A DNA stretch of 27,820 nt from a virus. The stretch is taken from IMG/VR virus record IMGVR_UViG_3300018421_000148, positions 1 to 27,820 of that record, one strand, 5' to 3'. Shown in pieces: positions 1 to 26,791 of this stretch. The translations under genes were made by a program, and so were the position numbers. The notes under the pieces were generated by a model. The model ran no database searches. It saw only the letters and a list, made by a program, of their open reading frames with translations, and had not been told where the DNA came from. The first letter of the stretch is position 1. Each line of letters starts with the position of its first letter.

Positions 1-1071
1 ATGAAAGCATATGAGACCGAACTTAATAATTGGTCTCAAAACCCTACACAAGAAAACCTAAACAGGCTCAACACTGTAGTAGCGGGAGCAAAAGAGTTTT
101 TAAAGATTGCCCCGGCTGCATATAGTTCGGACAACAACACCCTTATCAATGGGGTGATGAACTACGACAAGTACCAACAAGATCCGGACGAAATGAGAAG
201 TATGTTCGAACAAAAGTGGGGTGGTGAAGTCAATGTTCGTTACAATGATGAGACAATGCAAGTTGAAATTGTTGATGCTTCTAATGGTCAAGAAAATTGG
301 GGTAGTGTTTATGGTGGTCGTTATAAGCCTAGTGAAGAAAACGCTTTGACATTCACACCGAAGAACAACTTCAACTTTACAAGTTCTCAAGACTATGCTT
401 ACACCAAGGGTCGCCCAGCCATTGCCGCAGGAAACCCCGAACTCTTTGGTAAGAACTTTAGTGCAGAGGTACAATCTAATGATGACCTTAAGAAGAGTAT
501 TGCTATACAGTATGGGATGACGTTTAATCTAGACCCACAAACTGTAATGGCTGACCCTGAACTATGGGAGACTGCTCAAACAATGTACCTCGAAGATGCT
601 CAAGGAACACTATCTGAAATCGTTGCGGAAAACGAAAGACAGAAAAGGGATGCTGCTTCTAGAAGCCGAACTAAAAAATATGCGGGTACACGAACAGTTG
701 ACTTTAGTGGGACATCTGTAAAACTCGATCAACTAGCATCGCCTCCACTATTAACAATTCGAGGCGAATACGATGATGATGGTGAAGCGGAAGTTAATAA
801 AGTTCGTTTAGAAGCGTATAAGATAGAAGGTGGAGAATTGTATGTAGATATAGTCAATATATCATATCAATTTGTTGACATGAGCGGTAATCCTCTTTCG
901 GGGTCTGCACTAGCGGATGCTCAAGCAGACTATGCTGGTCTTAAGGATATGATTAATAGCAGTTATCAAATAAAAAAGCGTGAGGTTTCACAATTAAAAC
1001 AAGTTACTGATCCTACCGAACTGTCTGCTTACATGAGTGAACTTAAAAGAGCGGGATTAAAAACAAACTAA
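1..1071 (+). CDS. Probable phage virion protein, possibly 5'-truncated
   Basis: A 356-residue protein I do not recognise by family. It is hydrophilic, rich in Asn, Gln, Asp and Glu, and has no signal peptide or membrane segment. Residues about 205-230 are strongly charged; the C-terminal third looks like a beta-rich domain (about 232-295) followed by a helix. It ends 4 nt before the giant polyvalent gene, on the same strand, so the two are probably co-transcribed and this is likely a structural or internal virion protein. That role is inferred from position only. The ATG is the first base of the window, so the true start could lie further upstream and the N-terminus may be incomplete. Confidence 0.6.
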   Translation: MKAYETELNNWSQNPTQENLNRLNTVVAGAKEFLKIAPAAYSSDNNTLINGVMNYDKYQQDPDEMRSMFEQKWGGEVNVRYNDETMQVEIVDASNGQENWGSVYGGRYKPSEENALTFTPKNNFNFTSSQDYAYTKGRPAIAAGNPELFGKNFSAEVQSNDDLKKSIAIQYGMTFNLDPQTVMADPELWETAQTMYLEDAQGTLSEIVAENERQKRDAASRSRTKKYAGTRTVDFSGTSVKLDQLASPPLLTIRGEYDDDGEAEVNKVRLEAYKIEGGELYVDIVNISYQFVDMSGNPLSGSALADAQADYAGLKDMINSSYQIKKREVSQLKQVTDPTELSAYMSELKRAGLKTN

Positions 1072-1075
1072 TAGA

Positions 1076-4000
1076 ATGAACGAAGAAATTCTAGAATATC
1101 TACGAGGTCAATTTGGTGACGACTACTTTAACATTGACACTCAAGAAGCCTTAACCGACTATGAGAACACTGTTCTTCGTAGGGGCATTATGGCTGGTTA
1201 CGACCTAGGTGAGTTGCGACCCGCCTTGGAAGAACTTCGTGTTGAATTAGTAAAAAAAAAAGAAAGTCAACAAGAGGTTTTTCAATCTTCACAAGACCTC
1301 TATCAACAAGCAGTCGAAGAGACTGGGTTTTCGAAATCGGAAGACTCACCATACGCTGGAGGTCTAGGCTATGATTATAGCGGTACTCGAACATTAGAAA
1401 AACTTGACGGAAGTGCTGCCGAGCAAAAGGTAGCCAATGACGAACTAGATGCTTTAGCCAAGGATGTAGAAAACGCTCAATATGATCAGGCATATCAAAC
1501 ATTTAAGTACCTAGGTTATTCCGATGAAAAGGCATCTGAATCTGTAGGCAACCTACACAACATGGCTATTGAGCAGGGTCAACCCATAGGTCAGGTAATG
1601 AATAACCTTTACCTTATGGATTTCCGTACTGGGTTTGAGCAGTACAAAGACGATCTCAATGTGGAAAATGCTGATCGTTATAGGACTATCGTTGATTTTG
1701 GGGCTGCCTCACAAGAGGCTACGAATGTAGCGTATTGGCTAGATAAAGGCGTTGATATCGATGGTGCTTCAGAAGAACTTGGAATATCTATCAAGTCTCA
1801 TGATGTATTTCATGAGGACTATCTAACCCCAGGAGAAGACTACTTTTCTTTTTGGCTAATCGATGAAGAGTCCGCACCTGGTGAAAAGACGGGGGTATAC
1901 AACGACCTCAAAAGATTTTACAATCGTGCTGCGATTAGCAAGATGCAGGCAGATATGCTCGACCCTGTCATGCCTTTGTCCGAAGTAGATTTTGAGCGAC
2001 TTGCATACTACCAAAAGTTGATGCGTGAAAACCATCAAGTTGAATGGGACACAGACAACGCATTCCTTGAAGGTGTTGACATTGTTTTATCTAGTGTTGT
2101 ATCTCCTATCTTCGAATCCGCTGCGGCGATGTGGGCAGGGGCTGCAACGAACCCACTTACCTATATGGGTGCGCTTACTGGCGCAGGTACTTTTGTTGGT
2201 TTTGGTGCAGAGGGTCTTGCTCTTGAATACTCCTCTAAAGTATTAGAAGTCTTTAGTGAGTTAGGATACGACACAGCAAACCCCGCTCAACTAGCCAAAG
2301 CCTTTGAAAACCCAGAGGTCATGAAGGAAGCTCGTAATAGAGGTTTGGCTAAAGGTATCCCTATCGCTATTGTAGATGCTATTAGTGCAGGTACAGCAAG
2401 TGCTGTATACAAAAACATTATCAAGCAAGGGTATAGAAGGTTTACCACATATGCCCTCGCAGAAGGTGCGGAAGGTTTAATGGGTGCTGGTGGTGAAGCA
2501 TTAGGGCAGTTGGTAGAGACTGGGGAAATCTATGATGTGAAGGGAATCGCCTTGGAATTCCTAGGTCAAGGTATACAAACCGCTCCTATAAAAGCCTACA
2601 CTGCTATCAAGAATAAGGATATGAGTCAAGCGGAAAGAGACTATCTACGCTTTGCCGTCCTTAATCAGGATGCTCACGAACTTACTACCGCTGCGTCTTC
2701 AATGAACTTCAACGAAGTACAAGCAATTAATAAAAAGATTAAAGAGCAAAGACAGGCTGCTCGTAAGGCGAAGAGTAAAGAGGCTCGTGCAACACACCGC
2801 CAAAACGCTCGTCAACTTCAACAACAAAAATACGAGACACTCAATCGTAATCTAGAGACATTACAAAACCTGCCTGAAAACAAGCGTAAGAAAGTTGTAG
2901 AACTTACCGAACGCATGAACGACCATGCTATTGAACTTAAGCGATTTAAAAAGGGAGACCCCGGTCGCACGGCAGTCATTGAAGAGATAGGTAAGATATA
3001 TGGTCAAATTAATGACATCGTAAAAGGTCGTAAGCCTCGTGAGACTCCAATGGGATCAGAGGTTGCTCCTAATGTAAACCCAACTCCAGTAGATGGGGTG
3101 ACCCCGGTACCGGGCGCACCTACAGTTGAGGAAGCATCAACTCCAACAATCACAGAACTAGACGGACAACAAGCCGTGGTAAAACTGCCTAGTGGAATCA
3201 CTCGTGGTTTAGTTACTATTGACGAGGGTGGTAAGGTTACTATTGAGGATGCAAAAGGAAATGTAACAGAGCTAGGTAATGTTCAAGATATTGGTGAGCA
3301 GTCTCTTGAAGAGGCGGGGTTTGGTTCATTCTTGTCCGAGCTAAATGAAGACGGATCGTTCTCAATCCGTGGAAAACAATACACTGCTCCTCGTGGTAAG
3401 AAGTCAGTAAACCTCAATGAGAATGGAGAGGTTGTTAGTGTTACCCTAAAGGATTCGAAAGGTCGTAACCGAACCTTCCGTGGTGAGGTTGCCCAAGAGA
3501 TTGCTTACTTATTTAGTCAACCACAATCTAAACAAGAAGACACTCGTAGTATTGAGGAGATTATTGTTGAGACAAGTGAAGAGGCTAATGGCGGTCCAGC
3601 GGTAGAGACAGTAGAAGAGGTTCAAGGACAAGATGAAACTGTAACCCCTAGCGATGAGACTCCCCCGATCCCACAACAAGAAAAGCCTGAACTACCGAAG
3701 CCGGCATTGTCTTCTCCCGTGCGTACCATTAGCCCACGCAATGGTATCTCGGAACGAGTTGCTTCAATAGTCAATGGTCTTGTATCGGCATTGAGTGGTA
3801 ATATTGGTAAGGATGTACGGATGGTCTTTTGGAATAATACTGAAGACCTTAATAATGCCTTGGGTCAAAATGGACTAGAAGCATTCTATGATTTTAGAAC
3901 CAATACTATACACTTAACTATCGATGCTACGGATGCAGTGATTCGTGAAGAGTTTGCTCACGCTGGTTTCGGAGGCATCATGTCGGACGACAAGGTTCGT

Positions 4001-7000
4001 GGAAGACTATACCAAGAGGTAAGAGACCTCGCCAAGAAGAACGATGTACTCGGTGTTGATGTAGAGGCTATCGAACAAGCATATAGAGAATGGGGCAAGT
4101 CTGTAGGATTAAGCGAGTCTGCTATTGAGGCTATGGTGCAAGAAGAGGTGGTCATGAAAGTACTTGCGAGTTACACCACAAACCTCAACCAAATTGATGC
4201 TTCGTTGATAGGTAAGATCAGACGAATCATTAACAAAGCACTTACCGCAGTAGGTTTCAAGAAACTTACAATCACCGATGATGTTTCTCTTGTTAAACTA
4301 GCGGAGACATTCGCTCTTGCTACTCGCCAAGGAAAGGCTATTAACCAGCGTGTAAGCCAACCTTATAGAACACAGCCTGTAAGCGATGGTGGTCGTGCTA
4401 GTATCCTAATGTTAGCGGATGCCCTAGGTCTAGATGCAAAGACTATACAACAATTTAAAGGTGGCTATGGAGAGGCATTTAGTTTCAAGGCAGCGGAATT
4501 TTTAAAGAGAAGAGAAGTAGGATACGCTACCCAAGAAGAAGCTCTTGAGGCACTTGGTGAAATAGAAGATGTAAACCTTTTACCTGAAATTGCGAAGGAA
4601 GATTTAGAACTCGGAATGAGTGCTATGGCGACCGAGGTATTCGATGTCGCTAGTCAATCGCTAGAAGATGGTAAGACATACAATATTGAGACATATATTG
4701 ATTATAGTCAATATAAGTTAGAGACCGATCTTTCTATAAAAGGCAAGAGACTAGATGGCAGTCCTTCTTCTAGAAACCTTCGACTACCGATAGTTACAGG
4801 TGGATTCTTTATGCCTCGTACAGCAGAAGAATATGTTGAGGCACAGGAAAAGGGAACTATAAATCGATTCTTCCCTAAAGATACATTTGATAAATTAAAC
4901 CCTGGGGAACAACTACCTCCAAGATTCTTCGCATTAATGCCTGATCGTGGTACTACAGTTAGAAGGTCTACCAATACTGGTGGTGAGGGTCGCCTCGGTG
5001 GTACAGATGGAGTAAGAAAGGATCAGTTCCTTGCCGAAGAAGTATTAGGTTTAAGTTCCGAAATTCATAAAGAGATACTGCTCCAAGGTATCATGCAGTC
5101 GCCGATGATTCTTATCGGAGATGACAGTGTGCTTTTAGGAATCTATGAGAACGGAGACTTATTAGGTCATGTGTACGCTGAAGATATTGAAGCATATTTA
5201 GACGGAGACTCAAGTTTACTTCTTGATGAAGATGTGGTATTTGAAGACATAGTAATGTCCTCTGCTCCGTTGAAAGGTATGCCTATGGAGGCACTTGATA
5301 TTTACATGAGTGGCGTTGAAGCAATTGAAAACCGCAACCAAGCGGAGTACCAACAGTTGCTTGTCCAAATGCATCCAGATAATATCGGATGGATACCGGG
5401 ACTAGGAACATATAACGGCAACATATATAGTGCGGTGTATGAAGATGCTGTTAGAATTTACCAAGCGGTTTTAGAAAAAGAAAGTAATAATGGAAACATT
5501 GATGGTGCTTTAAAAGAGGCTTCAAAGATTGCGAAACAATCTATTCGAAAATCCTTAATGCCTCTAGGCGACATCTTATATGCTCGTGAGTTATATAAAG
5601 ATTCATATGGTGTAGAACCTCCACAGGTTGAGTCTATTGAGGAACTTGCGGGTTTCTTGGATACTAAACGCATGAGTGAGTTTGATGAGGGCATGATAAA
5701 AATCATGTTTGATTTGATTGACCTCGAAGCTCCTATGATTAGGCTTGATAACATTGCGTTCTTGGACAACAATGAAAACAGTGAAAGCGTTGAACCTTTG
5801 CTAGAAGACTTCCAATATAGTGAACGAGTTCGCCCTCAAAGAAGGACTTCTTTGGTTAACATTGATAGTAGAGAATACAAGGCGTACACTAGAAACTTTG
5901 GATCAGATGTTACTTGGTATTTGGAAGGTGGGCGTGTTCCTCAAACAATGAATGAACTACTTGCGGATGCAGACAACATTGCTGATCCACTAGAGCGCAT
6001 CAACTACTTGTCGTACATGACGGAACATATTGTCAACCGAGCCGGAGATATTGATGCCGAGATAGACAACAAACTGTTCCAACAAAAAGTAAAAGAGAAG
6101 ATCGATTCTTCTCGTGAGGAATTGTTGAGCGGTCGTGCTGCTTTGAACCAAGAGTCTATCAACAAACTAAAAGAGGGTATTGTCGCTGGTAAGCGTGTAG
6201 GTCAAGGCATTGCTTCTAGTCGTGGTGTATCTACGGATGTATCCGACATGTCGGCTTCTTCTGTTCGTTCAATACCTGCGGCTAACAGAAATGTTAGACC
6301 TATATATGTAGAACATGCTGTAGCGTTGACTAGTACAGAACGCCATCCAATAATGGCGGACCAGGAAGTTCCTCCGTTCATCGACAACATGCCTAAAGAG
6401 GATTACTCTAGAGAGGGTATGCTAACACTTTATCATGGTGGTTATGGTCTAGAGAATATCTCTAACGACCGACCTCTATACATATCTCCAGAGGAGAGTG
6501 AAGCGGCAGACTACCAACGCCTTCAAGATGACCAAGAAAAATCTGATCCTAAACTTGTAAACCCTGTCTACATAGAAGAGTCAAGGGTAGCATCTCAAGA
6601 CCAAGCACTAGAGGTAGCACGAAGATTGTTCCCAGAAAAGATGGCGCAGTATGATGCGACTGGAGATGCTATGTTCTTTATGTTGATAGATATAGAAGGG
6701 ATGGAGGCGAGAGGCTTTTCTTCAGAGGATATTCCATTTATACTAAATCAGAAAGAGCGTAAGAAATACTTTACGGCTCTTGAGTCGGCAGGTTTTGATG
6801 CGGTATCTTTTATGGATCAGCAGGCAGACCAGACTAGAAGTCCTAGGGTTGTGGAGAATATGGTAGTTCTAAATCCACAAACGGCTATGGATAATGGCTC
6901 TATGAAACTGCAAAGTCAAAAGGAATGGGCGGATGGAATCTATGCTACATTTAAAGAGCGTGTGGTTTCTAATCTTCTATACTTGCATGACCTTGCTGAT

Positions 7001-10000
7001 CCAGAGGTTCGTGAGTACATGCGTAGATGGTACGATGGTGCAAACAAGATTGCGAAGGACATGTCTACCAAATATGGTATTAGCGTAGAACAAGCCTCTG
7101 GTATTCTTGCTGCCCTATCGCCGGGTGCGGATTGGTTTATCAATATCCAAAACGCATACAACATCCTAGAGGTTCTTCACAATAACCAAGATTCTACATT
7201 TGATGAAACCATGTACAACATGGCTATCGGAAGAAAACTAGAATCATATAGACAAACTGGTCCAAATAGTTCTTACTACAAGAAGAAGTTCAAGGGTAAA
7301 AAGATGACCCCTTCTAAACTCTTAACGAAAGATCGAGCGGGATTTGATTCTTTCCAGGAGTCTATGGATATTCTTCGTGGCAGAACACTTTCTAGTATGG
7401 ATGCTTTGGAGAAAGCCAAGTTCATTCGCTACTATAGAGAAGTGTATATGCCTTCTACTGTACAAGTGTACAGCCCTGTTGGTGATGACCTAGGAACATA
7501 CACTACCAAGAGTGGTAAGCCTAGACAAGTTGTGACCCAAAGTTTTTCTAACATGGCGAAAGCCGTAACGATGTTTGAGAATAACGACATCGGTATGATT
7601 AGCGAACTGCTCGGAGGTAGCCATAAGATTAGACACTTCTACAATAACATCGCAAACCCTGATGCAACGGATGGTGATGTTACTATGGATACTCATGCGG
7701 TTGCTGCGGCGGAGCTCATGCCTTATGGTCAATCAAGCCCAGCCGTAAACGAGAACTTTGGTGGGGCAGGCATCATGTCTTCTTCGGTCAATGGTTTGTC
7801 AGGAAACTATTGGGCGTATCTTGATGCATATGTGGAGGCAGCAAACCAAAGAGGCATCCTTCCTCGTGAGATGCAGTCTATCACTTGGGAAGTGATTCGA
7901 TTAATGATGCCTTCAACTCTTCGTGATAATACTAGTAGATCAGATATAGCAGAGATTTATAAAGGTTATGAAGGAGAACCAATTGAAGATGTACAAAATG
8001 AAATTAAAAAATACTTCGATGAAAAAGACACCGACACAGAAACCCCAAGAGGAACAAATATTAAGCACCCTAGTTGGTACAGACCTTCTAGTAGCGAAGG
8101 AGATATTACGCAAGGGGAAACCTCTAACGAAGGAGACTTGGCTGGAGGAGATTTATCTAGCGGAACAAGTACCGAAGCAGATACACCCGGAAGTCCTAGC
8201 AACGATACCGGAAGGGCTGCACTAAAAATGCGTCAAGCCACGACACAGTTCGTGGACATGCTTAAGGGTGGTGTGCCTCAAGAGGTGGCGTTTGCCGAGA
8301 CCATCTTGAAGGCGGATAGAAAAGCCAAGAAGGGTAAACTCAAGCCAACGGATGAGGGATCAGATTTCTTCTACCAACCACAAAGCATCAATGCTACTAG
8401 AGAGCAGTTGATGGGGATGAGTACTGCGGAGATTGTATCAATGCTAGATACCAATGTCTTGCGTGACATTAGCACACAGGCTGGTAAGATAGACTTCTCT
8501 ACCGATGGTAACATCCTAGTACTTGCTCAAATAGAATACCTTGAGCGTTTGAGAAAAGCAGGCGACATGAACGGATACCAAACCGAACTCGCTAAACTTA
8601 CTCAAATGGGAACAACCTTTGGACAACTGCTCCGACAATTTGGGGAAATCAAAGGTCGTACTGTAGAGGGCATGGTATCCCTCATTGCAAAAGAATACGA
8701 GAGAAAGGGTACGCCTCTAAAAACAGATGCGCTAGAAACACTTACTCAAGTCGTAGACGAATACATGCAGGCTAAAGATGGATTTGACCAAGCGGTTGAT
8801 GAGGTCTTCGATACTGATCCGAGTAACTTCGACCAAATGGATAAGAAGGTTCAAGAGGCTCAAGAGAGATTAGAGAAAGCCATCGCAGGTATTAACGACT
8901 TCCAAAAGTTCAATGCGCCTACATGGGGTTCACTCCTATCTACCATTATGCAGGGTAACCTTCTTACCCTACGCTCTATTACAACGAACGTCATTGCGAA
9001 CGCCATCACGCTTCCAATGAGATTAGGTGAGCAGTTGATTGCTGCGCCGATAGAGTTTATGTTGTCAGGAAATAAGCGTGAGATCAGACCATCTTTCGGT
9101 GCTATGATTTACGGAGCGCAACGATCTTTCCATGGTCTTAAAGAAGCGTACAAATCTATCAAGAGCGGTGTTGCCCCTGGTGATTTTGAGTACACGGCGG
9201 GATATCAACTACGACCACTAGTTGCTCTTGCTACTGTATTTGGTAAGGGAAAAGAAGGACTACCTCAAGAGTTCCATAGTCAAGCAGACTTCATGAACTA
9301 CAAGGCAAAGAAACTTGTTGAGGGCATCTTTGGTCTAACGGCAGCATCAAACTTTAAACTACTTGTACTTGGTGACCGACCATTCTATCGTGGTATGGAG
9401 GGATATGAGTTGTACCAACAAGGTAGAAAGTTAGGGTTGTCAGGAGAATCTCTTGCTCAATTCCTTAAGTACCCTACCGAGGAACACTTGAGACTTGCTC
9501 GTGAAAAAGGATTGAAGCTCACCTTCCAAGAGAATGATTCTACCCTACTGTTTGGTATGGTGAATACCCAACAAGCACAAAACTTCTTTAGCGGTGCAGG
9601 TGGTAAAATGATGGAGAGTGATAAACTAATGACAAGAATGTTTGGTAATGCGGTTCGCTTTATCGTGAAGTCAAATGTTCCTTTCGTTAAGACTCCATTC
9701 AATATCCTATCACAGTCATTGGAGTTGACCATGTTCCCGATCACATTCTTACAAGCATTCTCTAGAGGAATGTCGGCTCGTGATAGATCAGAGAAACTAG
9801 CAACCGCCCTCATGGGATACATGTTGTTCTTACTTGCTCGTAGATTATATGACCAAGGTGCTGCTAGTGGAGCGGTAGATAAGATGAGTCCGAAGTCTCG
9901 TAGCGTAGCCTATGAGGTAGAACCTCCGTTCACTATCAATGTATCGGCACTAGGTCGTGAGACAGGAGAGCCTTTCCAACCATCTGATCGTAGAGTAGGT

Positions 10001-10930
10001 TTCGCTAAACTAGGTTTGCCGGGTGCGATACTCGCAGCGTATATTGAGGCGTTCAAGATTATCGATAGAAAGCCTAACTTCTCTAGCGAAGAAGAATTGA
10101 AAGAGTTTGGTATCGAAGAGCAAAGTCCAGTGAGTAGTTTCCTTGAGAAGTCAATGGGTATTACCCTAGGTTCTTTGGGTGCATTGTTGGATCAGTCCTT
10201 CTTGACCGGTCTAGAAAATGTAACGAAAGTGTTACAAAATACGGAGGATGTAAATGTAGTAACCAAGTACTTCGAGCAGTTGTCTCGTGCTATGGTATCC
10301 GTTCCTCTTCCTAACTTGTTCACATCATTCTATAGAGCGGAGCGTGAGTTCTTGCCAGACTATCGTGACAACACTATCGACAAGAGGTTTAAGAATGTAT
10401 TGTATGACAGAACCTTTGGTACATTTGGTAGAGGTGATAACCCTGCTCCTATCCGTATCAATGTGTGGGGTGAGAAGATTAATCAAACTCCTCCAGGAAC
10501 AAACCCTGTCTTCTATGAATTCCTTGACCCTACAGGCACAAGACTAGCAACGGATGATCCACTTAAGGTTGAACTATACTCTCTATATCGTAGAACAAAC
10601 GATGAGAATGCACTACCTTCTATACCTAGTATCATATTGAACAAGGAACTATTTAGAAACAAGGGATCAGAAAGATATGAGTTCACTACATCCGAAGTAA
10701 ATGAACTGCTCATGCTACTAGGTCAAGAAAGAACTAAAAGTTTACGAGCGGTTGTTGAGTCTGAAGGCTGGGGTAGAATGTCAGATGAATCTCAAATCGC
10801 TGTGGTTAAAAAGATAAATAGTCGCTTTAGTAAGGGCTACCAAAAATTAGATGATGGTAGTTTAAAAGTGTACAAGTGGTATCGCCGTAGACAAGAAATG
10901 ATAATGCAAAAGAAGAATGAAGCAAATTAA
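1076..10930 (+). CDS. Giant polyvalent/internal virion protein (3284 aa) with ART-like and LPD38-like domains
   Basis: Probably a virion-packaged protein injected with the DNA. Parts seen in order: hydrophobic Ala/Gly stretch about 343-375; charged coiled coil about 551-650; Pro-rich linkers about 662-690 and 835-890; degenerate zincin-like domain with REEFAHAG at 957-964 (E958-H962 where HExxH is expected) and E1023/E1024 in a following helix; ADP-ribosyltransferase-like domain about 1782-1935 (YHGG at 1786-1789, LYIS at 1801-1804, later GFDAV and VVLNP) resembling the ART domain of polyvalent proteins; helix-hairpin-helix glycosylase-like segment about 1950-2260 (ALSPG to 2017, MDTHA at 2204-2208); acidic Gly/Ser linker about 2335-2382; C-terminal region with VPFVKTPFN at 2868-2876, as in LPD38-type polyvalent domains. 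About 1200-1750 is unassigned. The stop overlaps the holin start by 14 nt. A run of ten A lies at 1252-1261. Domain calls are by eye; the ART-like and LPD38-like ones are the firmest. Confidence 0.85.
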   Translation: MNEEILEYLRGQFGDDYFNIDTQEALTDYENTVLRRGIMAGYDLGELRPALEELRVELVKKKESQQEVFQSSQDLYQQAVEETGFSKSEDSPYAGGLGYDYSGTRTLEKLDGSAAEQKVANDELDALAKDVENAQYDQAYQTFKYLGYSDEKASESVGNLHNMAIEQGQPIGQVMNNLYLMDFRTGFEQYKDDLNVENADRYRTIVDFGAASQEATNVAYWLDKGVDIDGASEELGISIKSHDVFHEDYLTPGEDYFSFWLIDEESAPGEKTGVYNDLKRFYNRAAISKMQADMLDPVMPLSEVDFERLAYYQKLMRENHQVEWDTDNAFLEGVDIVLSSVVSPIFESAAAMWAGAATNPLTYMGALTGAGTFVGFGAEGLALEYSSKVLEVFSELGYDTANPAQLAKAFENPEVMKEARNRGLAKGIPIAIVDAISAGTASAVYKNIIKQGYRRFTTYALAEGAEGLMGAGGEALGQLVETGEIYDVKGIALEFLGQGIQTAPIKAYTAIKNKDMSQAERDYLRFAVLNQDAHELTTAASSMNFNEVQAINKKIKEQRQAARKAKSKEARATHRQNARQLQQQKYETLNRNLETLQNLPENKRKKVVELTERMNDHAIELKRFKKGDPGRTAVIEEIGKIYGQINDIVKGRKPRETPMGSEVAPNVNPTPVDGVTPVPGAPTVEEASTPTITELDGQQAVVKLPSGITRGLVTIDEGGKVTIEDAKGNVTELGNVQDIGEQSLEEAGFGSFLSELNEDGSFSIRGKQYTAPRGKKSVNLNENGEVVSVTLKDSKGRNRTFRGEVAQEIAYLFSQPQSKQEDTRSIEEIIVETSEEANGGPAVETVEEVQGQDETVTPSDETPPIPQQEKPELPKPALSSPVRTISPRNGISERVASIVNGLVSALSGNIGKDVRMVFWNNTEDLNNALGQNGLEAFYDFRTNTIHLTIDATDAVIREEFAHAGFGGIMSDDKVRGRLYQEVRDLAKKNDVLGVDVEAIEQAYREWGKSVGLSESAIEAMVQEEVVMKVLASYTTNLNQIDASLIGKIRRIINKALTAVGFKKLTITDDVSLVKLAETFALATRQGKAINQRVSQPYRTQPVSDGGRASILMLADALGLDAKTIQQFKGGYGEAFSFKAAEFLKRREVGYATQEEALEALGEIEDVNLLPEIAKEDLELGMSAMATEVFDVASQSLEDGKTYNIETYIDYSQYKLETDLSIKGKRLDGSPSSRNLRLPIVTGGFFMPRTAEEYVEAQEKGTINRFFPKDTFDKLNPGEQLPPRFFALMPDRGTTVRRSTNTGGEGRLGGTDGVRKDQFLAEEVLGLSSEIHKEILLQGIMQSPMILIGDDSVLLGIYENGDLLGHVYAEDIEAYLDGDSSLLLDEDVVFEDIVMSSAPLKGMPMEALDIYMSGVEAIENRNQAEYQQLLVQMHPDNIGWIPGLGTYNGNIYSAVYEDAVRIYQAVLEKESNNGNIDGALKEASKIAKQSIRKSLMPLGDILYARELYKDSYGVEPPQVESIEELAGFLDTKRMSEFDEGMIKIMFDLIDLEAPMIRLDNIAFLDNNENSESVEPLLEDFQYSERVRPQRRTSLVNIDSREYKAYTRNFGSDVTWYLEGGRVPQTMNELLADADNIADPLERINYLSYMTEHIVNRAGDIDAEIDNKLFQQKVKEKIDSSREELLSGRAALNQESINKLKEGIVAGKRVGQGIASSRGVSTDVSDMSASSVRSIPAANRNVRPIYVEHAVALTSTERHPIMADQEVPPFIDNMPKEDYSREGMLTLYHGGYGLENISNDRPLYISPEESEAADYQRLQDDQEKSDPKLVNPVYIEESRVASQDQALEVARRLFPEKMAQYDATGDAMFFMLIDIEGMEARGFSSEDIPFILNQKERKKYFTALESAGFDAVSFMDQQADQTRSPRVVENMVVLNPQTAMDNGSMKLQSQKEWADGIYATFKERVVSNLLYLHDLADPEVREYMRRWYDGANKIAKDMSTKYGISVEQASGILAALSPGADWFINIQNAYNILEVLHNNQDSTFDETMYNMAIGRKLESYRQTGPNSSYYKKKFKGKKMTPSKLLTKDRAGFDSFQESMDILRGRTLSSMDALEKAKFIRYYREVYMPSTVQVYSPVGDDLGTYTTKSGKPRQVVTQSFSNMAKAVTMFENNDIGMISELLGGSHKIRHFYNNIANPDATDGDVTMDTHAVAAAELMPYGQSSPAVNENFGGAGIMSSSVNGLSGNYWAYLDAYVEAANQRGILPREMQSITWEVIRLMMPSTLRDNTSRSDIAEIYKGYEGEPIEDVQNEIKKYFDEKDTDTETPRGTNIKHPSWYRPSSSEGDITQGETSNEGDLAGGDLSSGTSTEADTPGSPSNDTGRAALKMRQATTQFVDMLKGGVPQEVAFAETILKADRKAKKGKLKPTDEGSDFFYQPQSINATREQLMGMSTAEIVSMLDTNVLRDISTQAGKIDFSTDGNILVLAQIEYLERLRKAGDMNGYQTELAKLTQMGTTFGQLLRQFGEIKGRTVEGMVSLIAKEYERKGTPLKTDALETLTQVVDEYMQAKDGFDQAVDEVFDTDPSNFDQMDKKVQEAQERLEKAIAGINDFQKFNAPTWGSLLSTIMQGNLLTLRSITTNVIANAITLPMRLGEQLIAAPIEFMLSGNKREIRPSFGAMIYGAQRSFHGLKEAYKSIKSGVAPGDFEYTAGYQLRPLVALATVFGKGKEGLPQEFHSQADFMNYKAKKLVEGIFGLTAASNFKLLVLGDRPFYRGMEGYELYQQGRKLGLSGESLAQFLKYPTEEHLRLAREKGLKLTFQENDSTLLFGMVNTQQAQNFFSGAGGKMMESDKLMTRMFGNAVRFIVKSNVPFVKTPFNILSQSLELTMFPITFLQAFSRGMSARDRSEKLATALMGYMLFLLARRLYDQGAASGAVDKMSPKSRSVAYEVEPPFTINVSALGRETGEPFQPSDRRVGFAKLGLPGAILAAYIEAFKIIDRKPNFSSEEELKEFGIEEQSPVSSFLEKSMGITLGSLGALLDQSFLTGLENVTKVLQNTEDVNVVTKYFEQLSRAMVSVPLPNLFTSFYRAEREFLPDYRDNTIDKRFKNVLYDRTFGTFGRGDNPAPIRINVWGEKINQTPPGTNPVFYEFLDPTGTRLATDDPLKVELYSLYRRTNDENALPSIPSIILNKELFRNKGSERYEFTTSEVNELLMLLGQERTKSLRAVVESEGWGRMSDESQIAVVKKINSRFSKGYQKLDDGSLKVYKWYRRRQEMIMQKKNEAN

Positions 10931-11366
10931 AAACACCAAAATTGGTAAGCTCTTAAAAGAGAAAGCACCTCAAGTATTAGATATTGTAGGAGACTTACTC
11001 CCTGATCAAGGGGCGTTGGGCGTTGTCAAGAGATTGATTGATGACCCTTCCGTTGAAATGAGTGCAGAGGAAAAGCAAGAGTTGAATAACCAAGTGATGG
11101 AGATGTACCAACTCGAAGTTGCTGATCGTGATAGCGCACGGAAACGCCAAGCGGAAATGGTAAAGGCGGGTGCGAAGGACTGGTTGTTCAATGTAACCGG
11201 TCTTGTAGGATTGGGAGCGTTCTCTTTCCTTGTTTGTTCTATCGTATTTTTACATGTACCTGAAGAGAACAAAGAGATATTCATACATCTTATCGGTATC
11301 GTTGAAGGTGTGGCTCTATCTATTTTCGGATACTACTTTGGATCAGCAATTAAAGAAGACAAATAA
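10917..11366 (+). CDS. Holin, 3TM/GTA-like family
   Basis: A 149-residue membrane protein. The N-terminal half is amphipathic (APQVLDIVGDLLPDQGALG at 17-35), followed by a charged helix with ADRDSAR at 69-75, then two hydrophobic segments at about 93-113 and 120-143 and a short charged tail. The amphipathic leader, the E..DR.SAR helix and the C-terminal membrane pair match the '3TM holin' family best known from gene transfer agents; such proteins permeabilise the inner membrane at the end of infection. It overlaps the polyvalent gene by 14 nt and the next gene by one base (TAATG), so all three are probably translated from one late transcript. The family match is by eye; the lysis role is supported by position. 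Confidence 0.75.
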   Translation: MKQIKNTKIGKLLKEKAPQVLDIVGDLLPDQGALGVVKRLIDDPSVEMSAEEKQELNNQVMEMYQLEVADRDSARKRQAEMVKAGAKDWLFNVTGLVGLGAFSFLVCSIVFLHVPEENKEIFIHLIGIVEGVALSIFGYYFGSAIKEDK

Positions 11367-11833
11367 TGGAACTAGAAGTATTAAGATTTAGTAGCGAAGC
11401 GGATAGCACTAACGGGCTATTGTTTGATATCACTAATGGTGAGCGTAAGTTCCTATGCTATACCCTAGAGGATGAGCATAGAGATGTAAAGGTTATGTCG
11501 GAGACTAGAGTACCGGCTGGTACCTATCAAATCACCCTGCGTACCACGGGAGGTCATCATGCTAAATACACAAAGAGGTATGGGGAGATGCACAAAGGAA
11601 TGCTATGGGTTCGTGAAGTGCCTAACTTTAAGTGGATTCTTATTCACACTGGTAATACTGATGAACACACTGCTGGGTGTCTCCTTGTTGGTGATACTCA
11701 AAAAATCAACTTTGGCGAGAGTGATGGATTCGTTGGTTCTTCTACTGCGGCGTATAAAAGAATCTACCCTCCGATTGCTAAAGCTCTTGAAGAAGGGGAG
11801 GAAGTAACGATTACATATATCGACTTCGATTAG
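11366..11833 (+). CDS. DUF5675-family protein, possible lysis partner
   Basis: 155 residues matching the DUF5675 pattern: RVPAGTY at 48-54, HKGMLWVREVP at 76-86 and a core IHTGNTDEHTAGCLLVG at 93-109. The His-Gly...Gly-Cys arrangement recalls the catalytic motif of YkuD-type L,D-transpeptidases, so a cell-wall role is plausible but unproven. No signal peptide or membrane segment is seen. Its start overlaps the holin stop by one base, which supports a lysis-module job such as a murein-active enzyme or accessory. It ends the rightward late operon and its stop overlaps the stop of the convergent leftward operon by 4 nt, with no terminator hairpin visible between them. Confidence 0.75.
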   Translation: MELEVLRFSSEADSTNGLLFDITNGERKFLCYTLEDEHRDVKVMSETRVPAGTYQITLRTTGGHHAKYTKRYGEMHKGMLWVREVPNFKWILIHTGNTDEHTAGCLLVGDTQKINFGESDGFVGSSTAAYKRIYPPIAKALEEGEEVTITYIDFD

Positions 11834-14709: not shown

Positions 14710-14959
14710 GGTGTTCTAGATATAGTTGGTGATTTAATTCTCTTTTTAGATGTACGATTGCCTTGATAATGTCTTGACTCATGGGGTTGCCGGGTTTTTT
14801 CCCCGCCCTCATTATATATGTCAAGGCAGTACCTAGGTTGTAGTTGTCTTGTTGAAAGTCTAGCACCACATCCATCGCTTCTATCTTTTTGTGCTTCCCT
14901 ATATAATAAGAAGGCACATCCTTTAAATTATAATCCACAGTATCCACTATCACATTCAT
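14576..14959 (-). CDS. DUF3310-family protein (nucleotide-kinase-like annotation)
   Basis: About 127 residues from the ATG at 14959. The core (SYYIGKHKKIEAMDVVLDF, then NLGTALTYIMRAGKK and KAIVHLKREL) fits DUF3310, a small helical family common in phage replication operons and sometimes labelled nucleotide kinase; its reaction is not established. Start choice is uncertain: the ATG at 14959 overlaps the PP-loop gene by 32 nt, while a GTG at 14917, preceded by AAAGGAT and 10 nt after that gene's stop, would give MPSYYIGK..., closer to the usual short N-terminus. The last 45 or so residues (Ser/Thr/Glu-rich) are encoded inside the primase gene in another frame and look unlike the family, so they may be run-on sequence. 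Confidence 0.7.
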   Translation of the reverse strand: MNVIVDTVDYNLKDVPSYYIGKHKKIEAMDVVLDFQQDNYNLGTALTYIMRAGKKPGNPMSQDIIKAIVHLKRELNHQLYLEHHEGSNNIPEHISEGSAISQRYFRSTTANTTREEQGTHRGDSQDG

Positions 14960-15788
14960 TAAAATCTTCATCAAACAATTGGAACTGCATCTTAAAAGAC
15001 TTGATATCTTCGTAACGAGTTCCTTTCTTAAACCTTGCCTTGTCGTTTTCTTGTCGTGCAAACCAATCGAACTTGTTTGGAGACTTTTCCGACATATGTT
15101 TCAAGAGCATCTCGTTCCTATGGAAGCAACCTACACAATTATTTAGATAAGCAAAGCGCACAGGCTTGTCTTTCCAATACGCCTCTATCTGATCCTTATA
15201 TATGTTGTCATGGATCAGTGGGAAAGAACACACACGATAAGGCATCTCCTTGTATCGATTACTTAAACCAGTCTTGCTCTTACCTATGATAAACTTTTCC
15301 CATTGGTATCCGTCCTCTTGATATCTATTCATCATAGAGTTAGCTCGCTTCACTTCATTGGCTCTAAATCCAATACGCATATCCACGGGCAGTTCCATGT
15401 TCTCATAACACCATTGCTTGATTGGGTTTACCTTGAGCTCCGTAGTACAATAGCGTTGAGTTACATTCGGAAGGTATAAGTATTCTCCTCCAGTCTTCTT
15501 GTCGCCACGCACAATCACATCATCAAAGGTTGGTCCAGTTAGCCAATGAATCTCTTGACCAATGAACTGCTCAAGATCGAGTATGGTGTATATGATTTCA
15601 TCTTGTTCTAAAGTCCCAATGAATTCTTGTCCTAGTTTGTCGCTCACTAATTGGCGAACCTTTGGATCGGGGAACATGCATTCCTTATCGCTAGTACGAA
15701 CAAGAGCAAACACATTGTAATCCGCCGGGTAATGCACGGCTATATATGATGAGGTCTTACCCCCACTTAATGAGTTCACTGTCTTCAT
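14928..15788 (-). CDS. PAPS-reductase-family PP-loop protein, possible [Fe-S] binding
   Basis: 286 residues starting with a PP-loop, SLSGGKTSSY at 6-15, which binds the pyrophosphate of ATP in adenine-nucleotide alpha hydrolases such as PAPS reductase. RYCTTELKVNP follows at 112-122. Five cysteines are placed to hold a metal or Fe-S cluster: C114, C218/C221 (NNCVGC), C279 and C284, of which the last two sit in a short tail. Phage members of this family are common; proposed jobs are sulfur assimilation, or DNA/RNA modification as in DndC-type phosphorothioation. Here the gene overlaps the cytosine methyltransferase stop by 4 nt, favouring a DNA-modification link, but no DndA, DndD or DndE is present. 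Substrate unknown. Confidence 0.75.
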   Translation of the reverse strand: MKTVNSLSGGKTSSYIAVHYPADYNVFALVRTSDKECMFPDPKVRQLVSDKLGQEFIGTLEQDEIIYTILDLEQFIGQEIHWLTGPTFDDVIVRGDKKTGGEYLYLPNVTQRYCTTELKVNPIKQWCYENMELPVDMRIGFRANEVKRANSMMNRYQEDGYQWEKFIIGKSKTGLSNRYKEMPYRVCSFPLIHDNIYKDQIEAYWKDKPVRFAYLNNCVGCFHRNEMLLKHMSEKSPNKFDWFARQENDKARFKKGTRYEDIKSFKMQFQLFDEDFNECDSGYCGL

Positions 15789-16840
15789 CGGAATAAAGGT
15801 TTTATTTTTTCAGCAATGGCTTGAACGACATCGACTGTCACGGCATTACCGCATTGCTTGTATCGTTGGGTCTTGCTAATCTCTTTTACCTCACCATCGA
15901 ATACTCCATACAAGGTATGATTATCGGGGAAACCTTGCAACCTTTCACACTCTATCGGTGTAAGCCTACGGATTCTTCCGTACTTAACAAATTGATCAGT
16001 GTTACCACCGCTCCCTGTACTTCCGTGAATAGTATTCGCTTCATCCTTTAGTGTGCGGTTGACTACCTCGCCATGCTTGTCCCGGCTATAGCCTACTACC
16101 TTGGGGTCTTTATAATCACGAGCCATGAGTGTTGGGCTGATCTCTTTAAAGCCTACTTCTCTAGGGGAGTAATTACTAACCTTTGGCGTTAGCATTTCTA
16201 CGAGTTGCATTCCCGAGTGGAGGGAGGCTTGACCTCTTGCTGTAAGCGTTTTGCTAACGGGTCTTCCTGTGCATTCCACCTCTCCATCTTCGCCACTTGA
16301 CTCGATGAGAGGAAATACTCCTCGCCAATCTCTTCGGGTTTCTGCAAGATATCCGACAAGGTACACTCTCTCACGATTTTGGGGTAAAAACCACGCAGTG
16401 TTGAGCAACTGCCATTCGCAGTCATAACCCCCAATGTCGGCAAAGGCTTGGAGGATTCCCGCAAAATCTGCCCCAGCATTTGAGGAGAAAGTTCCTTTAA
16501 CATTTTCCCAAATAAAAACTCGTGGTCTGCATTGTTTGATAAGCCGTATTGCTTCAAGGATAAGGCTTGAGCGTTCCCCACCCATCCCTTGTCGCTTCCC
16601 AGCAAGGCTAAAGTCTTGACATGGGCTTCCAAAAGTGATGAGGTCAATTCTTGGAAGGTCTCCTCCGTGAACATCTGTAACTGATCCGACATAAGTTGAT
16701 GATTTAAATTGGTGTTGGTATACCGCAACGGCATACTTATCTATCTCTGAAAAGTAACTTGTTACTTCGTACCCGGCTTTCTCAAATCCTTTATGGAAGC
16801 CACCGATACCACTAAACAAGTCAAGTTGATTTATCTTCAT
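15785..16840 (-). CDS. C5-cytosine DNA methyltransferase (Dcm family)
   Basis: 351 residues with the standard motif order: motif I DLFSGIGGF at 7-15 (S-adenosylmethionine site), motif IV GSPCQDFS at 71-78 with catalytic C74, motif VI ENVKG at 112-116, motif VIII QNRERVYLVG at 154-163, and motif X with GNAV at 331-334. The target recognition region lies about 190-290. All catalytic residues are intact, so it should methylate C5 of cytosine in a sequence not readable by eye, probably to protect phage DNA from host restriction. The ATG at 16840 directly precedes motif I; a TTG four codons earlier is in frame but adds nothing conserved. It overlaps the upstream gene by 20 nt and the PP-loop gene by 4 nt. 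A 178-codon second frame runs inside it. Confidence 0.93.
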   Translation of the reverse strand: MKINQLDLFSGIGGFHKGFEKAGYEVTSYFSEIDKYAVAVYQHQFKSSTYVGSVTDVHGGDLPRIDLITFGSPCQDFSLAGKRQGMGGERSSLILEAIRLIKQCRPRVFIWENVKGTFSSNAGADFAGILQAFADIGGYDCEWQLLNTAWFLPQNRERVYLVGYLAETRRDWRGVFPLIESSGEDGEVECTGRPVSKTLTARGQASLHSGMQLVEMLTPKVSNYSPREVGFKEISPTLMARDYKDPKVVGYSRDKHGEVVNRTLKDEANTIHGSTGSGGNTDQFVKYGRIRRLTPIECERLQGFPDNHTLYGVFDGEVKEISKTQRYKQCGNAVTVDVVQAIAEKIKPLFR

Positions 16841-17171
16841 GAGTAATATCAATCCTCTCTTTGTAAATTAACTTGGATGCAAGGCTTTCAAAGGTGTAGT
16901 TAGGAAGATCGTAGAGCTCCCGATATTTAAAGAGTATAAGGTTGTCACCTCTTTTATTCGGTATCACTATAATGGCGTAGTCAACATCGGACTTTTCCAT
17001 TGTGAAATTTAATTCCGAATCCCTATGATTTTGAACCTCTATCCAAAAACTATTTTTCTTTCCATCCTTGTCCGTATAAAAGAAGGGGGTCGAAAGTTTT
17101 TCGACCTTCAACCCCCAACACATAGCAATCACAAGGAATATCTTTTCCTTAAGATCAGAATGGTAGGTCAT
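16821..17171 (-). CDS. Hypothetical protein upstream of methyltransferase
   Basis: 116 residues from the ATG at 17171, chosen because it overlaps the stop of the SSB-like gene by only 17 nt. I do not recognise the family. It looks alpha/beta: a helix (KEKIFLVIAMCWG), beta strands (NSFWIEVQNH, DYAIIVIPNK, NLILFKYREL) and a final helix. The D...ExQ-like spacing around DKDGKKNSFWIEVQ could be a worn or variant PDDEXK-type nuclease core, which would be notable next to a methyltransferase, but this is weak. Its position between the recombination genes and the modification genes fits a DNA-related job. Confidence 0.6.
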   Translation of the reverse strand: MTYHSDLKEKIFLVIAMCWGLKVEKLSTPFFYTDKDGKKNSFWIEVQNHRDSELNFTMEKSDVDYAIIVIPNKRGDNLILFKYRELYDLPNYTFESLASKLIYKERIDITHEDKST

Positions 17172-25979: not shown

Positions 25980-26207
25980 ATGATCAGAAAGATTATCGTG
26001 GGCATCAATCCCAAGGATGCTATGGCTTACTATGTAGGTATGAAGGTTGGGAAGATGGTCATCAGCAGTATCGTTGTTGATGAAAAATATTTAATAAGAC
26101 ATAATATTCGGAGATATTTAATATATTTAACAGGAGATGAGGGGGTTATGTTATGGAAGAACATAGAAGGTCTCCCCGTCGTAGTTGAATATAATTTGAA
26201 TTTCTAG
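25980..26207 (+). CDS. Hypothetical small protein (75 aa)
   Basis: 75 residues, alpha/beta, with hydrophobic strands (KIIVGINPKD, KMVISSIVVDE, LPVVVEYNL) and basic helix HNIRRYLIYL. No recognised family. The start lies 5 nt after the preceding stop. The nucleotide stretch encoding residues 35-60 is especially A/T-rich. Confidence 0.6.
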   Translation: MIRKIIVGINPKDAMAYYVGMKVGKMVISSIVVDEKYLIRHNIRRYLIYLTGDEGVMLWKNIEGLPVVVEYNLNF

Positions 26208-26212
26208 TGAAA

Positions 26213-26791
26213 ATGATGAAGTCTATTCTTGTGCGTATACCCAAGCGTTTCAAGGATACAATCAAAGTAAACGATGAGGAACTATATCTAGAGACAAAGT
26301 TCGATGAGTTTGCTCATAGGGTAATGGAGGGCGAAGTTCTAGGCACTCCTATAAAGTATGAATGCCCTTTTGAAAAGGGAGATACTATCTACTTCCATCA
26401 CCATGTCGTGGTGGAGAAAGCACAGCGTATAGCGGTTTTTGAGGGCGATGATGTCTACGAGGTTAGGTATCATCCTAGCGATTCTATTAATTCCCAGGCA
26501 TTCGCCTACAAGGATAAGGAGGGGAAAATCCATCCATTATCTAATTGGGTACTCCTAGAGCCAATACGCCCGGAGAAAAAGTTGAAGAGCGACATTTTAG
26601 AGATTGTAAGTTTTGAGGAGGAACTTGCTTCCGAAGGCATTGTGACCTTCTTGACTAGTGAGATGGTGGAGAATGGTTTGCGTAAGGGCGATCGGGTACG
26701 ATTCTCAAAGCACTCGGACTACGAAATCCAAATCGATGGTACACCATATTGGAGAATGCGTATGTCTGATCTAGAATTGGTGTATGGCTAA
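26213..26791 (+). CDS. Tandem GroES-like co-chaperonin
   Basis: 192 residues. The C-terminal half ends GLRKGDRVRFSKHSDYEIQI (155-174), DGTPYWRMRMSDLELVYG, the signature ending of GroES/Cpn10 (KxGDxVxF.KYSG.E...DG..Y.I....DIL). LLEPIRPEKK at 114-123 and EGIVTF at 141-146 fit the GroES N-terminal strand and following strand. The N-terminal half repeats the plan: ILVRIPKR at 5-12, GEVLG at 40-44, KGDTIYFHHH at 55-64. So two Cpn10-like folds appear joined, as in chloroplast Cpn20. It probably caps host GroEL, perhaps to fold phage proteins. Start: ATG at 26213 preferred over an in-frame GTG at 26207 overlapping the previous stop. It overlaps the next gene by 8 nt. Confidence 0.72.
   Translation: MMKSILVRIPKRFKDTIKVNDEELYLETKFDEFAHRVMEGEVLGTPIKYECPFEKGDTIYFHHHVVVEKAQRIAVFEGDDVYEVRYHPSDSINSQAFAYKDKEGKIHPLSNWVLLEPIRPEKKLKSDILEIVSFEEELASEGIVTFLTSEMVENGLRKGDRVRFSKHSDYEIQIDGTPYWRMRMSDLELVYG

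Follow-up and report, generated by a model that had tools for sequence, protein, structure and literature searches.

The window analyzed here, 27,820 nucleotides of viral DNA in all, holds a giant gene whose product is probably a virion-packaged, ejection-type polyvalent protein, with carrier ends and an exchangeable cargo middle. At least two unrelated predicted activities lie in its single chain (HhH, ART-like and zincin-like), as an earlier note, made from the letters of this DNA, had proposed in calling the product polyvalent. The conserved N- and C-terminal regions would act as the carrier, serving packaging, envelope passage and membrane contact, and the middle would be a cargo bay in which modules are gained, lost and swapped. 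The HhH cargo is predicted to excise a base from DNA shortly after entry, via K2184 and D2205, and the ART-like cassette to modify a host protein using NAD+; the zincin-like domain would be retained though probably catalytically dead. The product falls within a known kind, the phage polyvalent ejection-type proteins. What is new is a glycosylase-like hub, an ART cassette that is either on or off, and a hidden small gene; the earlier note had seen neither the behavior of the cassette nor how dominant the HhH module is, nor the overprinted gene. What is known of polyvalent proteins comes mostly from lists of their domains. The close relatives found here show the cargo principle directly: the ART-like cassette is absent to the residue in a 90%-identical relative, and in a sister group the neighboring slot is occupied by two kinase-like domains.

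Table 1. Features of the giant gene and its neighbors, with positions in the window
Feature	Residues	Position	Strand	Remark
gp15-like gene, 3' part (432 aa)		1..1071	+	Start lies upstream of the window; directly before the giant
Giant polyvalent / ejection-type protein (probable)		1076..10930	+	Single uninterrupted ATG frame, 3284 aa
Conserved N-terminal hydrophobic stretch	330-520	2063..2635	+	Common to giants of DC33, L024, L037, L141
Zincin-like domain	885-1105	3728..4390	+	EEFAH at residues 958-962 in place of HEXXH
Variable cargo slot	1106-1685	4391..6130	+	Two kinase-like domains in relatives; a decayed remnant at most here
Junction motif GRASI	1106-1110	4391..4405	+	
Junction motif GRAAL	1686-1690	6131..6145	+	
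Optional ART-like cassette	1781-1938	6416..6889	+	Missing in frame from L002
DUF7178 / HhH-GPD-like DNA glycosylase domain (predicted)	~1945-2330	6908..8065	+	Candidate catalytic K2184, D2205
Overprinted 78-codon gene, +1 frame (very probable)		7989..8225	+	In linker between HhH and C-terminal region
Junction motif GRAAL	2379-2383	8210..8224	+	
C-terminal conserved region	2381-3284	8216..10927	+	Well conserved, not LPD38
149-aa protein, two hydrophobic helices (holin-like)		10917..11366	+	
DUF5675 protein (possible lysin)		11366..11833	+	

The giant frame and its modules

The single continuous frame of 9.8 kb described in the earlier note is confirmed by relatives and by purifying selection. 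Its length is far above chance expectation, and giants occupy the same place in other viral contigs: full-length and 72% identical in L008 (3300025769_000158), full-length in 3300017914_001352 and 3300042731_001703 (67% identical, L009), and partial and ~90% identical in L002 (3300037847_000760). With dN/dS at 0.05-0.28 in each module big enough to measure, the frame is under purifying selection. A second, sister subfamily (<40% identical; L024, L037 and others, 3324-3543 aa) is collinear with the giant in its N-terminal region, in the zincin-like and HhH domains and in the last 900 residues. Synonymous divergence in the ART-HhH block (6416-8065) is ~0.75-1.3, compared with ~1.4-3 in most of the gene, which hints at module exchange by recombination. 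More widely, 13 of 90 pairs of giants differ in the order of their modules, and giants sharing modules with this one carry true ART-PolyVal, LPD22, LPD38, InPase and Glyco_hydro_108 domains; among 38 HhH-bearing records, ART-PolyVal is found in 13 and LPD38 in 6.

The HhH-like part had been named in the earlier note and is indeed present, extending over the range given in Table 1; its only Pfam match is DUF7178 (1.1e-24), and its PHROGs are 3842 and 2878. The DUF7178 domain is common to phages CRP-738, LS06 and zth2-2, and occurs in two copies in Rctr197k. At least 581 stretches in IMG/VR match the module, and 51 of the 83 HhH-bearing open reading frames examined are at least 1000 aa long, the longest reaching 5508. 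Five residues, K2184, R2186, D2205, T2206 and H2207, are invariant in 50 diverse aligned sequences. The Lys in a hairpin followed by a DTH motif is an arrangement shared with HhH-GPD glycosylases (Nth, AGOG), and by motif K2184 and D2205 fit the hairpin Lys and the Asp of the Nth-type enzymes. An AlphaFold model of the module is confident (pLDDT mostly 85-98) and almost all-helical; its best meaningful fold match in the PDB is the 8-oxoguanine glycosylase AGOG, at a level that is not significant (prob 0.35, E 0.93), and a sequence search against the PDB gave no match. The domain is >100 residues longer than its small phage homologues. Two further observations come from other records: Rctr197k_173 (L013), 2039 aa long, combines two DUF7178 copies with InPase and a 2H phosphoesterase, and G027, the record behind L077, has an open frame of 7150 aa.

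We call the module HhH-GPD-like with fair confidence, and it may have glycosylase activity. The HhH-glycosylase fold has been reused in phage DNA hypermodification, and an enzyme of this fold that modifies bases, such as one of the phage thymine-pyrophosphorylase group, would agree with the lack of significant profile similarity to Nth/MutY (0.4% against E. coli Nth). We find this doubtful, as the best local alignment with Nth pairs the conserved Lys and DTH with the catalytic Lys/Asp of Nth, and the records of the small phage homologues call them DNA glycosylase or N-glycosylase/DNA lyase; the Pfam assignment is to DUF7178 only. With glycosylase activity preferred, DUF7178, an abundant module of unassigned function, is probably a DNA glycosylase that giant virion proteins carry as a built-in part, and if it is delivered, it would let the phage act, in the first minutes, on bases of its own DNA or that of the host.

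An ART-like part, also foreseen in the earlier note, finds moderate support at the profile level, so that its kind was essentially right. Against a profile of ART-PolyVal domains taken from other HhH giants, residues 1760-1950 score 59% in hhalign (E 9e-5) and 14 other segments of the giant ~3% or less; LYHGG at 1785-1789 corresponds to the YHG(T/G) NAD-binding start. Since Pfam gives no match to ART-PolyVal (PF18760) above the family cut-off, nor any even at E<=10, the segment is filed as ART-like only. Its AlphaFold model is alpha/beta with modest confidence (pLDDT 66) and is not independent of the ART assumption, because true ART-PolyVal rows were part of its alignment. The first fold match of this model is VPA0770 (E 0.08), a RES-domain toxin and predicted ADP-ribosyltransferase (PMC12457610). 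A joint alignment of ART fragments with the ART-HhH stretch misplaced the fragments and was discarded. L002 lacks exactly the cassette, in frame and with both flanks intact, and the sister subfamily has no counterpart, which together mark the ART-like segment as an optional cassette; the absence from L002 may be an assembly error.

Upstream of the cassette lies the variable slot. It has no family match in Pfam, and the region 1100-1780 has no relatives outside the clade. For the stretch at about 1200-1750, which the earlier note could match to nothing, Pfam, PHROGs and NCBIfam indeed give no match; the note's suggestion that enzymes may hide there applies to relatives, with their kinase-like pairs, and we claim no enzyme for the copy in the window. 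In the sister subfamily (L024, L037, L112, L118, L119) the slot holds two tandem kinase-like domains, with the Gly-loop, VxK, DxHxxN and FDxxG motifs present in L024, L037, L118 and L119. The profile of these domains matches PDB kinases only through the Gly-loop and the start of the N-lobe, so the kinases of the relatives rest on motifs. Phages of Verrucomicrobia-Chlamydia and Bacteroidetes have polyvalent proteins in which a distinct protein kinase group has been described (PMC5512222). The slot in the window is shorter than that of the sister subfamily and does not keep the catalytic kinase residues; a kinase domain of its own was rejected, at only 4% against the kinase-like profile and with the kinase motifs not in place. 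A possible kinase remnant is MHPDNIGW at 1432, in which the catalytic Asp is missing; L008 has MHPDSIGW there, and L009 has lost it.

Module borders carry a short motif, (G/N/D)RA(R/S/A)(L/I), in most relatives. A full-length chain typically has 3-4 copies, where 0.06-0.1 would be expected; one exact copy is left in L009. As a general property of giants the motif was dropped, because it is family-specific and because searching for motifs openly gives equally scored repeats in other giants. Its fixed place at module borders within the family remains, though the motif was defined only in hindsight. Codons differ between the copies, so that any constraint would lie on the protein. At these places the chain may be flexible, may be cleaved or may be open to module swapping. 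Of the four copies that the sister subfamily has, two could have arisen when the kinase module was duplicated.

The zincin-like assignment of the earlier note holds for homology and not for the catalytic motif. A profile of residues 880-1110 scores better against HEXXH windows from other giants than against random ones, and matches the profile that contains gp21 of Flavobacterium phage elemoA (HEIFH), L084 and L097 at 91.6-95.7% (E 8e-7 to 1e-8), with control matches at 0.5% or less; the link to elemoA gp21 runs through L097. In place of HEXXH, EEFAHAG is invariant in five aligned relatives. One zinc ligand is therefore missing and the domain is probably inactive, which makes autoprocessing, the role proposed for polyvalent zincins (PMC5512222), doubtful for this giant.

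The C-terminal region resembles the C-terminal end of giant L062 (94%, a distant match), which itself has no LPD38 match. The LPD38-like part (PF18857) that the earlier note had placed in this protein was ruled out: Pfam gives no match, and profile similarity to six true LPD38 domains is 1.1% or less.

These modules could also be read as catalytically dead remnants serving as packing or length filler in a giant that is mainly a structural ejection protein of the gp16 kind. The degraded zincin motif (EEFAH) agrees with such a reading, as do the fast divergence of most of the slot at 1106-1685 (20-50% identity to L009), the loss of its kinase residues and the presence of an intact classical enzyme motif in HhH only. 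HhH, however, is among the best-conserved modules (dN/dS 0.06-0.07), with Lys/Asp invariant in 50 sequences, and the clean presence or absence of the whole ART domain resembles cargo turnover rather than decay, so that we consider filler unlikely and prefer functional cargo.

A probable overprinted gene in the linker

The +1 frame within the giant gene very probably encodes a further, small protein. In the clade comparison, four-fold degenerate sites at residues 2301-2400 are 81-93% identical, compared with 9-71% in the other 100-residue windows having at least 20 such sites. All four clade members have an open +1 frame here that begins at a shared ATG and runs for 78 codons; in the overlap its product is 74-95% identical, against 68-87% for the main frame. 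Variable columns at main-frame codon positions 1/2/3 number 29/14/13 in the overlap, 17/11/51 upstream and 36/21/57 downstream. The codon-position signature is thus reversed in the overlap (Fisher p = 3.5e-5), and this reversal is unique along the giant gene (lowest 60-codon window -18, median +21); it is the pattern expected of a +1-frame gene under selection. We found no relatives of the product outside the clade, and no overprinted gene or such signal in the sister subfamily.

The same frame might instead be the tail of a frameshifted, C-terminally shortened giant, in that it is already open at about residue 2292, ahead of its ATG, and the overlap ends where the conserved C-terminal part starts. 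This seems improbable, however, because conservation in the +1 frame begins at the shared ATG, with differing +1 residues upstream, and because an AAGGAG/GGGAG-like stretch lies ~12 nt upstream of the ATG in all four genomes. A separate gene, which we favor, is a concrete hidden gene where gene finders would not look. More speculatively, and with little confidence, its product might be a cargo partner, an immunity or chaperone protein silencing the glycosylase or ART in the producing cell, with the GRA(R/S/A)L junctions as swap or cleavage borders.

Gene order, delivery and known relatives

Upstream gene order was read on IMG/VR contig 3300023180_000059 (59 kb), which includes the window. The series is MCP, three smaller genes (two of them virion structural families), a 1373-aa tail protein that is a virion structural protein, a 271-aa gp14-like gene, the 432-aa gp15-like gene and, 5 nt after the end of the last, the giant. 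In short-tailed T7-type phages the order is capsid, tail, gp14, gp15, gp16. The giant is accordingly the third and largest of three ejection-like genes, at the gp14-, gp15- and gp16-like positions. Rhodobacteraceae phage LS06-2018-MD07 has the same order, with a 3102-aa giant two genes after an annotated internal virion protein, as does Limnohabitans phage DC33, with a giant of 3125 aa. Flavobacterium phage elemoA (3694 aa) and Cellulophaga phage phi38:1 (1691 aa) have giants after the same gene series, both labeled "structural protein" by record annotation. The MCP and large tail protein of the window's phage are 26-36% identical to those of elemo-type and phi38:1-type phages; the host is probably in Bacteroidota. 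BLASTP found no significant similarity between this giant and those of elemoA and phi38:1, and the profile-level zincin match to elemoA gp21 is the sole link of the giant to the cultured giants used for synteny. Two record entries deserve mention: the LS06-2018-MD07 giant (L016, OP947163.1) is annotated only as methyltransferase, and phage DC33 (L017, PQ492659.1; 39 kb, with the giant-protein gene series) is filed under Inoviridae.

The place of the gene after the MCP, tail, gp14-like and gp15-like series, together with giants of cultured podophages at the same place, supports the virion-packaged, ejection-type reading, and from this gene order, with its parallels in other phages, we strongly infer packaging and ejection. 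The polyvalent domains of module-sharing giants and the ejection-protein position of the gene make a polyvalent protein that would travel with DNA the best reading. That the giant is never packaged and is made during infection for host takeover or defence is very improbable: its packaging in this phage rests on synteny and cargo-type enzymes occur also as solo phage genes, but in five phage groups the late structural operon has the giant immediately behind its gp14/gp15-like genes, and the hydrophobic stretch near the N-terminus is conserved across giants.

A packaged, ejected giant would have counterparts in known systems. Phage-type polyvalent proteins (PMC5512222) are likewise single giant chains with unrelated enzyme-like domains encoded among virion genes, as this one is, and share with it ART-like and zincin-like modules. 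The giant differs from them in that its main module is HhH/DUF7178 glycosylase-like, a word ("glycosylase") absent from the main text of Iyer et al. 2017 (PMC5512222), and in having no HEXXH in its zincin, no LPD38 and an overprinted gene inside. The likeness to podovirus ejection proteins (T7 gp14/gp15/gp16; N4 vRNAP) lies in operon position and order, in being third and largest, and in the hydrophobic N-terminal region, whereas the cargo, unlike that of T7 gp16 or the N4 giant virion RNA polymerase, includes no RNA polymerase or transglycosylase. At the same place in related phages stand elemoA gp21 and phi38:1 gp101, giants annotated as structural proteins; the HEIFH zincin of gp21 is homologous at the profile level, and gp21 also has DUF3293, unlike the giant.

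Directly downstream lie the two-helix 149-aa protein and the DUF5675 protein, which make the adjacency to lysis genes claimed in the earlier note plausible only. Elsewhere in the window, on the - strand, a PAPS-reductase-like gene (14928-15788) adjoins a C5-cytosine methyltransferase gene (15785-16852), and a GroES-like co-chaperonin is encoded at 26207-26791 on the + strand, as one likewise is in phi38:1.
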